A DNA stretch of 8,113 nt from contig JADFON010000069.1 of the NCBI GenBank assembly GCA_022562855.1, positions 1 to 8,113 on the forward strand, in the 5' to 3' direction. The notes below the pieces were generated by a model. That model saw only the letters and a list, made by a program, of their open reading frames with translations. It was not told the DNA's origin and searched no databases. Source of the stretch: Candidatus Zhuqueibacterota bacterium (GTDB lineage Bacteria; SM23-31). The position numbers were made by a program, and so were the translations under genes. Shown here piece by piece: positions 20 to 8,052 of the stretch (the first letter of the stretch is position 1; each line of letters opens with the position of its first letter).

Positions 20-559
20 TTACGAAATTGCCTCTCCATGGGATTCAGATTGAAGCCAAGTATCGTTTGATGAGATAATGGTCAGTACCAGGAGAAACAT
101 ACCCACCGATACGGCGATATCGGCAACGTTGAAAATGGGCCATCTGGTGAGGTTGACTGAAGGCGTGCTGAATAAAAAGAGATCAAACGACCGGAATTGT
201 ATATCGGGAACATTCATATCCATAAAATCCACAACACTGCCATTCATAAACCGGTCATAGAGATTTCCGACGGCGCCTCCAAAGATTACGGCAAGTGAAA
301 ATCGCGGCAAAAGTCTCTCCTTACGGAATTTGAAAATGTAATACAATATTGCCCCTGCGGCAACTATACTCAAAAGATTAAAGAAAATCTTGTTCGGAAT
401 AGCGATTCCGAATGCCATTCCGTCGTTTTTGATAAAGGTCAGTTGGAAAAAGTTTCCGAATACACGGATAGACTCACCAAGAGACAAATTGACTTTTACA
501 AGCCATTTAGTCAACTGGTCGACAAAGAACACGGCGCCCGAAATTAAAAATATTTTCAT
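20..559 (-). CDS. lspA: Lipoprotein signal peptidase (signal peptidase II)
   Basis: This inner-membrane aspartyl protease removes signal peptides from prolipoproteins after diacylglyceryl transfer to the lipobox cysteine. The 179-residue protein is slightly longer than the usual 160-170. Hydrophobic segments lie near residues 3-20, 58-76, 86-103 and 144-163, fitting the four-helix family topology. Family motifs are VDQLTKW (13-19), KNDGMAFG (44-51), GGAVGNLYDR (94-103), SVVDF (108-112) and FNVAD (143-147). By family knowledge the catalytic dyad is D111 and D147. They are 36 residues apart against 19 in the Pseudomonas enzyme, so the periplasmic loop between them is enlarged. The ATG lies 2 nt after the stop of the TraR/DksA-type gene, with only a weak AAAGGCG Shine-Dalgarno-like stretch 8 nt upstream, suggesting translational coupling. 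Last complete gene of the cluster; identity is secure. Confidence 0.96.
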   Translation of the reverse strand: MKIFLISGAVFFVDQLTKWLVKVNLSLGESIRVFGNFFQLTFIKNDGMAFGIAIPNKIFFNLLSIVAAGAILYYIFKFRKERLLPRFSLAVIFGGAVGNLYDRFMNGSVVDFMDMNVPDIQFRSFDLFLFSTPSVNLTRWPIFNVADIAVSVGMFLLVLTIISSNDTWLQSESHGEAIS

Positions 560-561
560 AA

Positions 562-936
562 CTATAACGCCTTTTTTTTCTCTGTTTTACAATCAACGCA
601 CATTGTTGCGATAGGGACAGCTTCCAGGCGTTCCCTGTCAATCAGTTTTTGGCATTTCACGCATATGCCGAATGTCCCTTCGTCAAGACGTTTCAAAGCT
701 AATTCCAGTCTTTCAAAGTACTGGCTTTCGCGGGAAGCAAATAGAAAAGCCTTTTCCCGTTCCTGCGAATCGGTACCCTGGTCTGCCATATGAAAAGAGT
801 AAGAAGAATGGTCGCCGGTCGCGTCTTTTACTGTCGTATTCATTGCGTTTTCACGCAGATAACCAAGTTTGTCCAACAGGTTCTCCTTCTCTTTTGCTAT
901 CAGCGTTTTGAAGAATTCCACGTCTTTTTTATTCAT
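562..936 (-). CDS. TraR/DksA-family C4 zinc-finger protein
   Basis: A 124-residue protein with an N-terminal helical hairpin (about 1-85) and a C-terminal four-cysteine zinc finger: C92-x2-C95 and C113-x2-C116, 17 residues between the pairs. This is the DksA/TraR layout, whose members bind in the RNA polymerase secondary channel. The tip reads HMADQG where E. coli DksA has DPVDRA, so one tip aspartate is kept and the other, with the alanine, is not. An effect on transcription is therefore not assured. I chose the ATG at 936 because GGGAGT sits 4 nt upstream. An in-frame TTG at 966 would add ten residues but lacks a comparable site. It lies between ileS and lspA, exactly where Bacillus carries ylyA, a member of the same family. 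Confidence 0.9.
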   Translation of the reverse strand: MNKKDVEFFKTLIAKEKENLLDKLGYLRENAMNTTVKDATGDHSSYSFHMADQGTDSQEREKAFLFASRESQYFERLELALKRLDEGTFGICVKCQKLIDRERLEAVPIATMCVDCKTEKKKAL

Positions 937-940
937 TTTT

Positions 941-946
941 ACTCCC
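941..946 (-). promoter_or_regulatory. Ribosome binding site of the TraR/DksA-type gene
   Basis: GGGAGT on the minus strand, followed by AAAA and the ATG at 936. It is one of the better Shine-Dalgarno matches in the cluster and is the reason for preferring this start over the TTG at 966. Confidence 0.65.
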
Positions 947-986
947 GTTTCATTAAAATGATTCAAAAATAATCATTCGTATGAAT

Positions 987-1072: not shown

Positions 1073-4000
1073 TCATTTATTAATACGTTCAATACCGATT
1101 CTTGCGGAACCGGATTCAAATTCGAACGTCTGTTCAAATTCTCCCGGGTCAAATTCAGTCGATATTTCCGATGTAAGTGTCTCGCTTGTAATATACTCTT
1201 CTTCCTGTTTAATTAAATCATTTATATCGTTTGAGGCTTCGAGATATATCCTTATCCGGTCAACGATTTCGAAGTTTGCCTCTTTACGCATATTCTGTAC
1301 CCGGTTAACAAATTCCCTGGCAAACCCTTCGCGTAACAGGTCAGGCGTCAGTTTTGTATCAATCCCGACCGTAAGACCGTTATCTTCTGCAATAAGGAGG
1401 TTCGGTCGATCTTCGGATACAATTTCCAAATCACCTTCGTTTAATATATATGACTTCCCGTTAACCCGGATCGTTAATTGATTTTTCTCCTCAAATTCAG
1501 CAAGGTCATCTTCCGAAAGGTTTGCGATAATCTCCTTTGCGGGTTGAATGTCCTTTCCAAGTTTTGGCCCTAACAATTTGAAATTAGGTTTTGCCACTTT
1601 TAGCACAAGTGAAGAATTGTCGGGAACAAAGGAAATTTGCTTAATATTGACTTCACCTTTTATAAATGCTATCCCGTTTTCAATCTGCGATTTCTGTGTT
1701 TCGTCACGTGGTACAACAATAATCCCCGCAAGCGGCTGCCGTATCTTGATGCTTGCCTTATTTCTTAACGAACGTACTAAGAAACATACCCTGCGGATTT
1801 GCCTCATTCTTTTTATAAGCGAATCGTCCTTGAACTGAAACCATGGATCGCCCGTAACAGGGTATCGCTCGAGATGCACACTGGTGTCCTGCCCATTTTG
1901 GGCTTCACTGCTTTTATTAAGGTTCCTGAATATTTCTTCAGACAAAAACGGAGCGAAAGGAGCCATCAATTTGGTTACCGTTATCAGGGATTGGTATAAG
2001 GTTTGGTATGCGGCATCCTTATCAGAGCCTTTTTCACTTTTCCAGAACCTTCTCCTGTTGAGCCTGACATACCAGTTCGAAAGGTCGTCGATTACAAACT
2101 CGGAGATTGCTCTCGATGCCTTGGTGATGTCATAATTCTCCATATGCAGGTTGACGGATTCAACTAATTGTGAAAGCAAAGACAGAATCCACTTGTCGAT
2201 TTCCGGTCTGTCTTCAGCAGGAATCGTGTTTTCTTCGTTATAGCTGAACTCATCAATATTTGCGTATGTAGCAAAAAACGAATAGGTGTTGACTAACGTA
2301 CCAAAAAATTTCTTTATTACTTCCTTTACAAGTTCGCGGTCGAATTTTGTCGGCACCCATGGCGGGCTCCCGCTGACAAGATACCACCGGAGGGCGTCTG
2401 CCCCTTCTTTTTCAAGCACATCATTCGGGTCAACAACATTGCCCTTGGTCTTTGACATCTTTACCCCGTCTTTGTCGAGTATAAGGTCATTGGTAAGACA
2501 ACTCATATATGCGGGTTTATCAAAGAGCAGGACCGAAATCGCCATCAGGGAATAAAACCAGCCCCTCGTCTGGTCGACGCCTTCACAAATAAAATCGGCA
2601 GGATAATGGATTTCAAACTTATCTTTATTTTCGAATGGATAGTGCAGTTGGGCATAAGGCATACAACCGGAATCAAACCAGCAGTCGATAACCTCGGGCG
2701 TCCGTTTCATATCACCGCCGCACTCCCTGCACTGCAAAACAACGTCGTCGATATAAGGTTTATGCAGGTCTAAATTCTCCGGCAGAGGATTACGGCTTCG
2801 TTTAGCGAGAGTCTCTATGCTGTCAACAGAATCCAGGGCGTTACACTTTTTGCAAATCCAGATATTAAGGGGCGTACCCCAGAACCTGTCACGTGATAAC
2901 GACCAATCGACATTGTTCTCAAGCCAGCGGTGAAACCGTTTTTCACCGACCTCTTTTGGCACCCATTTTACCTTAGTGTTGTTGGCAAGCAGCCTGTCTT
3001 TGAATTTCGTTGTCTTTATGTACCATGACTGACGCGCATAGTAAAGAAGCGGGGTTTCGCACCGCCAGCAATGTGGATAATTATGTTCATAATCTTCGCT
3101 GTAATAGAGAATGCCGGAACTTTCCAGGTCCTTGATTATTTTTGGATCGGCGTCTTTTACATTCAAATCTTTATAGGGTGTGATTTCACTTGTAAACCTG
3201 CCTTTTTCGTCAACCGGTTGAAAGAAAGGAAGATCGAATTTTTTTCCAGCCGTAAAATCGTCTTCCCCGAATGCAGGTGCGATATGCACTATCCCTGTAC
3301 CTTCTTTCGTAGAAACGAAATCACCGGAAATCACAAAAAACGCCCTTTTATCAGCTTTCTTGAAAGGAAAGATCTGCTCGTATTCCATATCAAGAAGCTC
3401 CGAACCCTTGCATGTTTTTACAATTTCGTAATTCTCTTTTATGACATCCCGCCGTTCGGAAACAAGGATATAGGTTGCATCAGCCGTTTTGGCAAATACA
3501 TATTCGAGTTCCGGGTTGACTGCAAGCGCCACATTTGAGATTAACGTCCAGGGAGTTGTCGTCCAGACAAGAAAGTAAGTATCGGCAAGACCTTTTACCT
3601 TCATTTTCACGTATACAGTTGGATCGGTAACATCTTTGTATCCCAGTGAAACTTCGTGACTCGACAGCGGCGTGCCGCACCGGGGACAGTAAGGGAGTAT
3701 TTTATATCCTTTATAGATAAGGTCACGTTTGAAGAAATTATCAAGAATCCACCAAACCGTTTCAACATATTCGTTCTTATATGTTATGTAAGGGTTGTCC
3801 AGATCGAGCCAGAAACCGATACGTTCGGTCAGGTAGTCCCAATCCTTTTTATACCGAAATACCGATTTTCTGCATTTTTCATTAAACTTGTCGATACCGT
3901 ATTCTATGATTTTTTCCTTGCTGTCGAGTTTAAGTTCTTTTTCGACTTCGATCTCGACCGGCAGCCCGTGCGTATCCCATCCGGCTTTTCTTTCAACGCG

Positions 4001-4231
4001 GTAACCCTGCATAGTTTTGAACCGGCAAATAAGGTCTTTTATGGTTCTTGAAATTACATGGTGAACGCCGGGTTTCCCGTTGGCGGTCGGCGGTCCCTCA
4101 TAGAATATAAATTGATTATCCTCAGGTCGTTCGTCTACAGACCGTTTGAACGTTTCGTTTTTCTTCCAGAATGAAAGAATTTCTTTTTCGAGTTCCGGAT
4201 AATTGACCTGTGACGGCAGTTTTTTATACAT
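1073..4231 (-). CDS. ileS: Isoleucyl-tRNA synthetase, type 2 (IleRS2), with a swapped GxHH signature motif
   Basis: This cytoplasmic class I enzyme attaches isoleucine to tRNA-Ile and edits valine. The 1052 residues match type-2 (eukaryote-like) IleRS rather than the roughly 930-residue type 1. In order: the signature region GPPTANGKPGVHH (46-58), GWDTHGLPVE (84-93), the CP1 editing domain with WTTTPWTL (223-230) and HIAPAFGEDDF (316-326; H316 and D325 match known editing residues), Cys pairs at 182/185, 388/391, 460/463 and 501/504, KMSKT (591-595), an anticodon-binding domain (about 676-830), and a type-2 C-terminal region with KLLGPKLGKD (885-894) and VNRVQNMRKEANFE (975-988). The type-1 C-terminal zinc finger is absent. 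The signature reads G55-V56-H57-H58 instead of HxGH, so its first and third positions are exchanged. The ATG at 4231 has no clear Shine-Dalgarno. It is the only ileS in the window and sits at the conserved housekeeping locus. Confidence 0.97.
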   Translation of the reverse strand: MYKKLPSQVNYPELEKEILSFWKKNETFKRSVDERPEDNQFIFYEGPPTANGKPGVHHVISRTIKDLICRFKTMQGYRVERKAGWDTHGLPVEIEVEKELKLDSKEKIIEYGIDKFNEKCRKSVFRYKKDWDYLTERIGFWLDLDNPYITYKNEYVETVWWILDNFFKRDLIYKGYKILPYCPRCGTPLSSHEVSLGYKDVTDPTVYVKMKVKGLADTYFLVWTTTPWTLISNVALAVNPELEYVFAKTADATYILVSERRDVIKENYEIVKTCKGSELLDMEYEQIFPFKKADKRAFFVISGDFVSTKEGTGIVHIAPAFGEDDFTAGKKFDLPFFQPVDEKGRFTSEITPYKDLNVKDADPKIIKDLESSGILYYSEDYEHNYPHCWRCETPLLYYARQSWYIKTTKFKDRLLANNTKVKWVPKEVGEKRFHRWLENNVDWSLSRDRFWGTPLNIWICKKCNALDSVDSIETLAKRSRNPLPENLDLHKPYIDDVVLQCRECGGDMKRTPEVIDCWFDSGCMPYAQLHYPFENKDKFEIHYPADFICEGVDQTRGWFYSLMAISVLLFDKPAYMSCLTNDLILDKDGVKMSKTKGNVVDPNDVLEKEGADALRWYLVSGSPPWVPTKFDRELVKEVIKKFFGTLVNTYSFFATYANIDEFSYNEENTIPAEDRPEIDKWILSLLSQLVESVNLHMENYDITKASRAISEFVIDDLSNWYVRLNRRRFWKSEKGSDKDAAYQTLYQSLITVTKLMAPFAPFLSEEIFRNLNKSSEAQNGQDTSVHLERYPVTGDPWFQFKDDSLIKRMRQIRRVCFLVRSLRNKASIKIRQPLAGIIVVPRDETQKSQIENGIAFIKGEVNIKQISFVPDNSSLVLKVAKPNFKLLGPKLGKDIQPAKEIIANLSEDDLAEFEEKNQLTIRVNGKSYILNEGDLEIVSEDRPNLLIAEDNGLTVGIDTKLTPDLLREGFAREFVNRVQNMRKEANFEIVDRIRIYLEASNDINDLIKQEEEYITSETLTSEISTEFDPGEFEQTFEFESGSARIGIERINK

Positions 4232-4365: not shown

Positions 4366-5187
4366 TTACAATTCCTCGATAACCCTGCTTATCAATTTTG
4401 TCAGTTTCGGTTCTGCTTCGCCGGCGGTTTGTATTATTTCGCTGATATCGACCGGCTCCAGTGTTTCCGGAATGCACATATCTGTAATAACCGATAAGGC
4501 AAGGATTCGCATTCCCATATGAACCCCGGCAATGACTTCGGGCACGGTGGACATTCCTATAGCGTCCGCTCCGATCACTCGCAGCATTTTGTATTCTGCT
4601 CTCGTTTCAAGACTTGGTCCTGTCATTGATGCGTAAACGCCCTGTTTTACTTCGATGTTTTCTGAATTTGCAATCTGTTCAACCTTCTTTATTAAATCCG
4701 GATCGTACGCATTAAACATATCGGGATACCGGGGTCCGATAGAATCGTCGTTAGGTCCTATTAACGGGTTGTCGCCCAGCAGGTTAATGTGGTCGTTCAG
4801 TATCATAATATCACCGCGGTCAAAAGCCGGGTTTAACCCCCCGGAAACATTTGATATAATCAGTGTTCCGGCGCCGAGATATTTCATAACCCGGACGGGA
4901 AAAGTTATATGTTTTTGCGAATAGCCTTCATAAACGTGAAACCTGCCCTGCATTACGACTACTTTTTTTCCGCGCAGAGTTCCCAGTATAAATTTACCCG
5001 CATGGAACTCAACAGTTGAAAGCGGAAAGCCCGGAATTTCCTCATAGGGGATCTCAGCGTCTATCTCTATTTCCTTTACAAGACCTCCAAGACCGGATCC
5101 GAGAATTATCCCGGTTTCCGGCACAAGACCGCTGTGTTCACGGACAGCCTTTACTGCTTTTTCTATCGATTCACGAAATTCCGGCAT
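4366..5187 (-). CDS. Purine nucleoside phosphorylase (trimeric PNP/MTAP family)
   Basis: The enzyme reversibly cleaves purine (deoxy)nucleosides with phosphate to give free base and pentose 1-phosphate, for cytosolic purine salvage. The 273 residues are full length for the trimeric family. Visible are the phosphate loop ILGSGLGGL (28-36), GRFHVYEGYS (81-90; R82, H84, Y86 and E87 match phosphate- and ribose-site residues), NVSGGLNP (113-120), the TGPSLETRAEY segment with the base-binding E194, and GMSTVPE (211-217). The position matching human PNP N243 is aspartate (D236 in ITDMC), as in the related methylthioadenosine phosphorylases, so 6-aminopurine use is possible. The remaining sequence looks more like PNP than MTAP. 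It lies 63 nt after the DivIVA-domain gene and 134 nt before ileS. Family is secure; substrate preference is not. Confidence 0.93.
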   Translation of the reverse strand: MPEFRESIEKAVKAVREHSGLVPETGIILGSGLGGLVKEIEIDAEIPYEEIPGFPLSTVEFHAGKFILGTLRGKKVVVMQGRFHVYEGYSQKHITFPVRVMKYLGAGTLIISNVSGGLNPAFDRGDIMILNDHINLLGDNPLIGPNDDSIGPRYPDMFNAYDPDLIKKVEQIANSENIEVKQGVYASMTGPSLETRAEYKMLRVIGADAIGMSTVPEVIAGVHMGMRILALSVITDMCIPETLEPVDISEIIQTAGEAEPKLTKLISRVIEEL

Positions 5188-5250: not shown

Positions 5251-6033
5251 TCAACTAACCGGACCGCTGTCCGGTTTATCTTTTGAATCTTGTTCTTCTT
5301 CGTCGATAATTTTATCGATCATATTAAAACCGTCGTGTATCTGGGAAACCGGATTATCACTTTCAGTTTGAGTTTCCGGATTGGGTATTGTCTGTTTCAC
5401 CGGAGTATCAGACTTGTCCCGGAACGAGATATCTTCCTTGCTTTCTAAAGGCGTAGAATCATCAGACGCTAAAGACAGTTCGGGTTCATCGTCATTTTTT
5501 ATTGCTGTTCTAACCTCGTCGCTTGAATCGCCGGCTGTTTTTTCATCCCCCGGTTTTTCGTTCATATGAGAGGCGGCTTCTTCGGAATCATTCGATTCAA
5601 TCTCATCGAGTTCAAGCACACGTACCCATTCTTTCAACCTCCGGACAAACGATTCTCTTTGCTTCTTCAACATGCCGATTTCGTCTCGAAGCTGGTTTGC
5701 TTCCCTGTGTGCGTCTTCGATTATTTTTTGCGCTTTCGATTCAGCTTCCCGCAGTATTGTTTCAGCTTCACGTTTTGACGCTTCCAAAGACTGAGTGGAA
5801 GTCCGCTTTGCCTCGACTAAGGTTTCCTGCAAGGATCCTTCAACTTCTTTATACTTCTCAAGCTCTGTCCCGTATTTGGTAACCTTTTCCTGTAGATCGT
5901 TTTTAGTTCGTAGTAGTAGTTCAAATTCATCCGAGACCATTTCAAGGAATGTTTCTACCTCGACCGTGTCAAACCCCCTGATCACTTTTTTAAATTCTTG
6001 TTTTTGGATCTCTCTCGGTGTGAACTTAAGCAT
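5251..6033 (-). CDS. DivIVA-domain coiled-coil protein
   Basis: A 260-residue protein opening with a DivIVA/GpsB-type domain: FTPREIQKQEF (4-14), then RGFD (19-22) and VEVETFL (24-30). Family members bind negatively curved membrane at poles or septa and recruit partners. The Bacillus membrane-inserting pair F17-R18 aligns with I18-R19, so a bulky hydrophobic-plus-Arg arrangement is kept. Residues about 30-145 are charged heptad-like coiled coil. About 150-260 is a low-complexity acidic, Ser/Asp/Glu-rich tail, probably disordered, with a more ordered-looking patch near the end (GFNMIDKIIDEEEQD). I chose the ATG at 6033 because AAGGTGA lies 5 nt upstream; the in-frame GTG at 6042 overlaps that site. 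It follows yggS and precedes ileS at a distance, as in Firmicutes. The cellular role in this organism is inferred only. Confidence 0.88.
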   Translation of the reverse strand: MLKFTPREIQKQEFKKVIRGFDTVEVETFLEMVSDEFELLLRTKNDLQEKVTKYGTELEKYKEVEGSLQETLVEAKRTSTQSLEASKREAETILREAESKAQKIIEDAHREANQLRDEIGMLKKQRESFVRRLKEWVRVLELDEIESNDSEEAASHMNEKPGDEKTAGDSSDEVRTAIKNDDEPELSLASDDSTPLESKEDISFRDKSDTPVKQTIPNPETQTESDNPVSQIHDGFNMIDKIIDEEEQDSKDKPDSGPVS

Positions 6034-6038
6034 AATAT

Positions 6039-6045
6039 TCACCTT
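6039..6045 (-). promoter_or_regulatory. Ribosome binding site fixing the DivIVA-domain gene start
   Basis: AAGGTGA on the minus strand, with a 5-nt spacer to the ATG at 6033, is a strong anti-Shine-Dalgarno match. The alternative GTG at 6040-6042 lies inside it, which argues that the ATG three codons later is the true start. Confidence 0.7.
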
Positions 6046-6080: not shown

Positions 6081-6776
6081 CTAATGATGTGGATCATAAG
6101 GTATTCGTTCACCGAATATTGCCCTTCCAACCCGGACCATAGTGGAACCTTCTTCTATTGCCGTCTCGAAGTCATTGGTCATTCCCATCGATAATTCGGT
6201 AAGCGGATTGTCAAATATATTTGTCCTGTTTGCCTCTTTCAGTATGTCGCGGACAGCACGGAAATAACTCCTCAGTCTTTCAATATCGTCTGTCAAAGGA
6301 GGAATCGTCATCAGTCCAAGACATTTCAACTTTGCAAACGTTCTGACCTCTTTTAATAAGCCAAGAGTCTCATCCGGCATGACGCCTGACTTTGCCTTTT
6401 CCTCACCGATATTTACTTCTACAAGAAAATCAATTGTACGAGAAGCCCTTTTGTCGATTTCCGCAGCAAGGCTGACGCTGTCAACCGAATGAATCGTATC
6501 GAATATCTTCAGCGCAGTTTTCACTTTGTTGCGCTGCAGATGACCGATCATATGCCATACGGCTCGCTCACGAACATCGTCGAACTTTGCCGCAGCCTCC
6601 TGGATACGGTTTTCCCCTATATCATTTATTCCATTTCGTATAGCTTCGTCAACAGTTTCAGCCGGATGAGTTTTTGAAACTGCGATGAGTTTAACGTTAT
6701 CTGCACTTCGTCCCGACCTCTGTGCAGCACGCGTTATCCGTTCCAGGATAACACGAATATTCTCTCCAATATCCAT
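6081..6776 (-). CDS. yggS: YggS/PROSC-family pyridoxal-phosphate homeostasis protein
   Basis: A 231-residue single-domain PLP-binding protein of the YggS/YlmE/PLPBP family. It has an alanine-racemase-like barrel fold but no established enzymatic activity; relatives buffer PLP and affect Ile/Val metabolism. The PLP-binding lysine is K35 in LIAVSKTHP (30-38). Other family motifs are GENRIQE (54-60), WHMIGHLQRNK (74-84), VNIGEEKAKSG (121-131), GLMTIPP (154-160), the phosphate-binding region LSMGMTNDFETAI (195-207), and VRVGRAIFGER (214-224). The protein is complete, with typical length. It is the first gene of the minus-strand cluster, followed after about 40 nt by the DivIVA-domain gene. There is no Shine-Dalgarno before the ATG; a TATAAT ends 7 nt upstream, so the message may be leaderless. 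Confidence 0.95.
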   Translation of the reverse strand: MDIGENIRVILERITRAAQRSGRSADNVKLIAVSKTHPAETVDEAIRNGINDIGENRIQEAAAKFDDVRERAVWHMIGHLQRNKVKTALKIFDTIHSVDSVSLAAEIDKRASRTIDFLVEVNIGEEKAKSGVMPDETLGLLKEVRTFAKLKCLGLMTIPPLTDDIERLRSYFRAVRDILKEANRTNIFDNPLTELSMGMTNDFETAIEEGSTMVRVGRAIFGERIPYDPHH

Positions 6777-7035: not shown

Positions 7036-8052
7036 ATGTACAAACGGGAGCGTTCTCAGCTTAGTTTTCATGATATGATCTATGATAGAGTTATCCGCAA
7101 GAGTCATTTTTTATATAAGCTCGAAAGTGTTATTGATTGGCATCGTTTTGAGCGGTATTTTGACCGGTTGTACCCGTCTTCTGTGGGCAGACCTGCATAC
7201 AATCCGGTTATGATGTTTAAAGCTTTGGTTCTTCAGTTTTTGTATGATCTATCCGATCGTCAATTGGAAGATAACTTGAATGACCGCCTGTCCTTTCGTT
7301 ATTTTTTGGGCATTGACCCGTCCGATGCGGTTCCTGATCATACGGTTTATTGCCGTTTCAGAGACCGTCTCGGCGCCGAAACGATTGCCGAATTGTTCAA
7401 CGAAGTTGTTTCACAGGCACGGTCGAAGCGGCTGGTAAAAGACCGTCTCTGTATCGTTGATGCAACGCATGTCGAGGCAAAAGTGAACACCTACCGTATG
7501 AATGGAGAGCGTGATGATGATGCTCCCGGAAGCCCTCCCAGCCGCATAGATCCTGATGCGCGTCACGGATATAAATCAAAGAACAAGCCGTTCTTCGGCT
7601 ATAAAGTCGGCATCGGTATCGATAAGGATACCAACATAGTCACCACTGTTACAGCGACACCCGGCAACGAGCACGACAGTACCCACTTTCCGGATGTTGC
7701 CGACCCGCATGCAAAGACGGTAACCGCCGATAAAGGCTATGACAGCCCGGACAACTTTGCACTCATCAAAGATCGTAAACAAAAAGCCGCGATCATGGTC
7801 AAACGTAGAAGGGGTAAACAGCGAGGTCATATCAAGGCACGCTACCCCACCCAGAAAGCATATCAGCATTACTACCGTCTGAAACAATTCCGCTCATATA
7901 TCGAAAAAATCTTTGCCACTGCCAAACAGTGGTACGGACTCGGTAGAGCACGTTACCTCGGTCTGGCGAAAATGAAACTACAAGCAGCCATGACGATGAT
8001 GGCTATGAACTTAAAACGTATGGTGTTATTGGATAAATCCGTCCAAACATGA
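7036..8052 (+). CDS. IS5-family DDE transposase
   Basis: A 338-residue, apparently intact transposase that would cut and rejoin its element's ends. The N-terminal DUF772-type region (about 45-125) includes GRPAYNPVMMFKALVLQFLY (51-70) and VPDHTVYCRFRDRLG (99-113), typical of IS5 relatives. The catalytic core shows D142 in IVDATHVEAK, D232 in TADKGYDS and E290 in RSYIEKIFATAK. The last fits the family R-x3-E-x6-K signature (R286, E290, K297). The reading frame has no internal stop or frameshift, so the copy could be active or recent. It is the only plus-strand gene and starts about 260 nt from the divergent yggS. There is no passenger gene before the window end. Confidence 0.93.
   Translation: MYKRERSQLSFHDMIYDRVIRKSHFLYKLESVIDWHRFERYFDRLYPSSVGRPAYNPVMMFKALVLQFLYDLSDRQLEDNLNDRLSFRYFLGIDPSDAVPDHTVYCRFRDRLGAETIAELFNEVVSQARSKRLVKDRLCIVDATHVEAKVNTYRMNGERDDDAPGSPPSRIDPDARHGYKSKNKPFFGYKVGIGIDKDTNIVTTVTATPGNEHDSTHFPDVADPHAKTVTADKGYDSPDNFALIKDRKQKAAIMVKRRRGKQRGHIKARYPTQKAYQHYYRLKQFRSYIEKIFATAKQWYGLGRARYLGLAKMKLQAAMTMMAMNLKRMVLLDKSVQT

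Follow-up and report, generated by a model that had tools for sequence, protein, structure and literature searches.

Exchange of the first and third positions of the class I HxGH signature is a described natural variation of type 2 isoleucyl-tRNA synthetases (IleRS2): G/AxHH occurs in 86 of 163 prokaryotic IleRS2, distributed over two clades, and in none of the type 1 enzymes (IleRS1) (Brkic et al. 2023, PMC10485003). That work inferred at least two origins for the swapped motif, plus a reversion in Deinococcus-Thermus, and tied G/AxHH to millimolar inhibition constants (Ki) for mupirocin. The D. radiodurans enzyme (DrIleRS2; ALHH) is inhibited by mupirocin with a Ki of 6.6 mM, which becomes 823-fold lower once the motif is changed to HVGH, and it shows little catalytic trade-off (PMC10485003). 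When GVHH was engineered into the IleRS2 of T. thermophilus and P. megaterium, Ki rose about 200- to 430-fold, and kcat in these mutants was reduced yet retained (PMC10485003).

Here, we analyze an 8,113-nucleotide stretch of DNA (the window) from an uncultured bacterium, Candidatus Zhuqueibacterota, which encodes an IleRS2 that natively carries GVHH. Like natural G/AxHH enzymes, such as those of D. radiodurans and S. griseus (PMC10485003), which are often housekeeping, it is a type 2 enzyme with positions 1 and 3 of HIGH exchanged; it differs from them in coming from another bacterial lineage.

An intact type 2 IleRS with GVHH in the signature column

The window contains ileS within a cluster of genes on the minus strand (Table 1), adjoined on the opposite strand by a transposase; no RNA element or tRNA was found in the window. 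The ileS reading frame runs uninterrupted over 1052 codons and includes the KMSKT loop as well as two segments of the editing domain, WTTTPWTL and GTGIVHIAPAFGEDDF.

Table 1. Features of the window, with positions numbered from its first nucleotide.
Feature	Positions	Strand	Evidence
lspA, signal peptidase II, conserved neighbor	20..559	-	TIGR00077 above cut-off
DksA/TraR-type zinc-finger protein (YteA/YlyA-like), conserved neighbor	562..966	-	TIGR02890 (E 3.8e-26) and TIGR02420, both under curated cut-offs
ileS, type 2 isoleucyl-tRNA synthetase, 1052 aa, intact	1073..4231	-	ORF; TIGR00392; best PDB matches PmIleRS2 and T. thermophilus IleRS
GVHH at residues 55-58, the site of the class I HxGH signature	4058..4069	-	Direct translation; column match to PmIleRS2 HVGH/GVHH
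Purine-nucleoside phosphorylase (PNP), neighbor conserved in the class	4366..5187	-	NF006054 and TIGR01700 above cut-off
DivIVA-domain protein, conserved neighbor	5251..6042	-	TIGR03544 above cut-off
YggS family PLP-binding protein, conserved neighbor	6081..6776	-	TIGR00044 above cut-off
Transposase, IS5/IS1182 kind	7036..8052	+	

Residues 55-58 read Gly-Val-His-His (codons GGC GTT CAC CAT; GGCGTTCACCAT), within the translated context GPPTANGKP-GVHH-VISRTIKD (residues 46-66). This GVHH aligns without gaps to the HVGH of P. megaterium IleRS2 (PmIleRS2; u140264) and to the GVHH of its active engineered mutant (structure 8c8w). Glycine (G55) thereby falls at the first and histidine (H57) at the third HxGH position, the state that defines G/AxHH. 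Thus, the translation and the alignment bear out the original prediction that a swapped motif occupies the HxGH column of an enzyme with no sign of decay. The 12-base motif pattern is by itself not rare, with nine matches in the genome; what makes GVHH significant is that it falls in the column of the class I signature.

With the genome available as a fragmented draft (491 contigs), a sequencing or assembly error, or a decaying gene, might be imagined as the source of the motif. The intact reading frame argues against this, as do the two relatives in the same family whose motif can be read, which have GVHH or GIHH, and the clade surrounding the window IleRS, which carries GxHH throughout. An erroneous or decaying motif is thus refuted in practice, and we regard its probability as negligible.

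Assignment to ileS is supported by score, and assignment to type 2 by scores and by phylogeny. The window protein scores 980.6 bits against the TIGR00392 ileS model (cut-off 621.4), and 1004.9 bits to PmIleRS2 vs 402.6 to PmIleRS1. In a tree of 107 IleRS, it falls within the IleRS2 group (SH-aLRT 100), outside the 15 IleRS1 rows. The structures of P. megaterium IleRS2 (PDB 8c8u, 8c8v, 8c8w, 8c9d) share its domain order over residues 12-1020, with the signature column aligned. The original prediction had cited the P. megaterium work as showing that an altered HIGH motif is competent and resistant; this holds for the mutant, but that enzyme is natively HVGH, with GVHH introduced only by engineering (PMC10485003), while the window enzyme is natively GVHH.

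A probable native gene in a conserved cluster

The window ileS was predicted to be a native housekeeping gene and not an added copy, and gene order and genome content agree. The order yggS-divIVA-PNP-ileS-dksA-lspA is common to the window and G002, a genome of the same family; in G001, another family member, the upstream half of the cluster is conserved and the contig ends inside ileS. The position of the DksA/TraR-type gene is identical in G002 and in G004, which belongs to the same class. Apart from PNP, the cluster resembles the Bacillus subtilis ylmE-...-divIVA-ileS-ylyA-lspA region. Neither the window protein nor TIGR00392, used as queries against the genome, turned up another ileS in a bin that is 79.6% complete, and the weaker matches of these searches were other class I synthetases. 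Given the conserved gene cluster and the lack of a further ileS among the roughly 80% of the genome that is covered, the swapped motif looks native, although that level of completeness leaves room for a second ileS.

An acquired mupirocin-resistance copy of the MupA/MupB kind, sitting beside another ileS, might be suspected from the nearby IS5/IS1182-kind transposase, and the plasmid-borne MupA and MupB are likewise type 2 homologues. The window enzyme, however, scores far under the cut-offs of 1900 bits for MupA (NF000257; 980.1 bits) and MupB (NF000258; 929.8 bits), the bin yielded no other ileS, and the cluster order is kept in related genomes. We therefore consider an acquired copy very improbable and treat the window ileS as the native gene.

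Distribution of the swapped motif

We searched 290 genomes, sampled outward from the genome of the window, with a sequence pattern that matched 66 places, one of them false; the pattern read backward gave three matches as a control. G/AxHH was found in 57 of the 65 IleRS2 genes and HxGH in the remaining eight, a ratio that is an estimate, since the pattern misses some IleRS2 (e.g., those with PPSANG or PPFANG). In addition, 80 loci were fetched from genome contigs with the window protein, mostly from Clostridia and Tissierellia with some Bacteroidota and Chloroflexi: 73 have GxHH, six have HIGH, and one (L085) starts too late to match the first pattern, yet is GIHH by alignment. The original prediction had seen something special in GxHH in the housekeeping ileS of an unrelated lineage. 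With 86 of 163 published (PMC10485003) and 57 of 65 surveyed here, that claim does not stand; the window ileS is an ordinary member of a described, common variant, and the first interpretation was mostly right but not new.

Six type 1 IleRS (L116, L118, L213, L215, L217, L114) have a natural change elsewhere in the signature, at the fourth HIGH position (HLGT, HMGT, HIGT, HLGQ). A short literature search on threonine at this position of IleRS1 gave nothing relevant.

The phylum of the window is represented by six genomes in the collection. Within the family, the G001 protein has GVHH and is 88% identical over residues 1-97, and that of G002 has GIHH and is 67% identical. Two genomes of the same class, G004 (L243 2223-5351) and G005 (L244), encode ileS products of 37-38% identity with TANNPM-GVHH and with GVPMHKS or GIPMHKS in place of the KMSKS loop; these fall in the other IleRS2 clade (SH-aLRT 100). 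In G004, where gene order was checked, the cluster again runs yggS-divIVA-PNP-ileS-dksA-lspA, with the other-clade ileS in the position flanked by PNP and dksA-lspA, and an exchange in place is likely, as the simplest reading. The clade placement of both genomes, together with the gene order of G004, raises a broader possibility: within the class, an ileS of one IleRS2 clade may have replaced that of another, deeply separate clade at the same slot of a conserved cluster, each clade having derived the swapped signature independently, which would hint at continued selection for GxHH in the niche. We advance this proposal only tentatively and think it rather unlikely to be correct.

The IleRS tree requires six switches of motif state between GxHH and HxGx, and starred branches force no fewer than four of these. 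Since this is a quick tree, built with no mixture model and weakly supported at many forks, the count agrees with the published repeated origins without improving on them.

Residues at the adenine-stacking column

The adenine-stacking residue, Phe586 in PmIleRS1 and His582 in PmIleRS2, corresponds to residue 583 of the window enzyme. Here the window protein has Asp-Leu at residues 582-583 (about 2480-2488, minus strand), while in HxGH type 2 enzymes these positions are usually Gly followed by His or by some other residue. In the major IleRS2 clade, column 583 is Leu, the commonest residue in GxHH enzymes, in 43 of 54 of them, vs His in 7 of 14 HxGH enzymes; column 582 is Asp or Glu in 41 of 54 and Gly in 13 of 14, respectively. 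We do not take this raw association as coupling to the motif, as it is confounded by descent. Covariation of the two columns with the motif was considered and rejected: supported branches provide three independent pairs, which is too few, and column 583 goes both ways. Given Leu583 in place of His582, the exact active-site geometry may differ from that of PmIleRS2.

Predicted activity and mupirocin insensitivity

We conclude with high confidence that the window enzyme, with its natural GVHH signature, serves the uncultured bacterium as its native housekeeping IleRS2, and we predict that it is active and mupirocin-insensitive. The sequence and its intactness, the signature column, the family, the gene order, the relatives, and the tree were observed here, and the expected catalysis and resistance are drawn from the literature. 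By analogy with the characterized enzymes, the tip of IleRS2 helix alpha-1 would be shifted such that His57, at the third motif position, substitutes in catalysis for the first His of HxGH, whose place would be occupied by Gly55. The predicted insensitivity follows from His57, which in that position would clash with mupirocin. The enzyme should thus remain active and withstand mupirocin at concentrations reaching the high micromolar or millimolar range, and we infer resistance of the organism on the same grounds.

Why GVHH is kept is a separate question. The motif might be retained for another reason, such as another isoleucyl-adenylate mimic or drift between near-neutral states, with resistance as a by-product. 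The commonness of the motif across lineages (57/65), the four or more motif-state changes that the tree requires, and the small trade-off in DrIleRS2 all fit such a scenario, to which we give serious weight, if somewhat less than an even chance. It concerns only the reason for retention and is compatible with the main explanation, a native GVHH enzyme predicted to be mupirocin-insensitive.

Altogether, the window adds one more lineage to those for which a swapped catalytic motif predicts natural mupirocin insensitivity. It supports the published view that the swap is widespread in type 2 IleRS and leaves the overall picture unchanged. The likely exchange in place between GxHH clades in its relatives would be a good setting in which to ask what maintains the motif.
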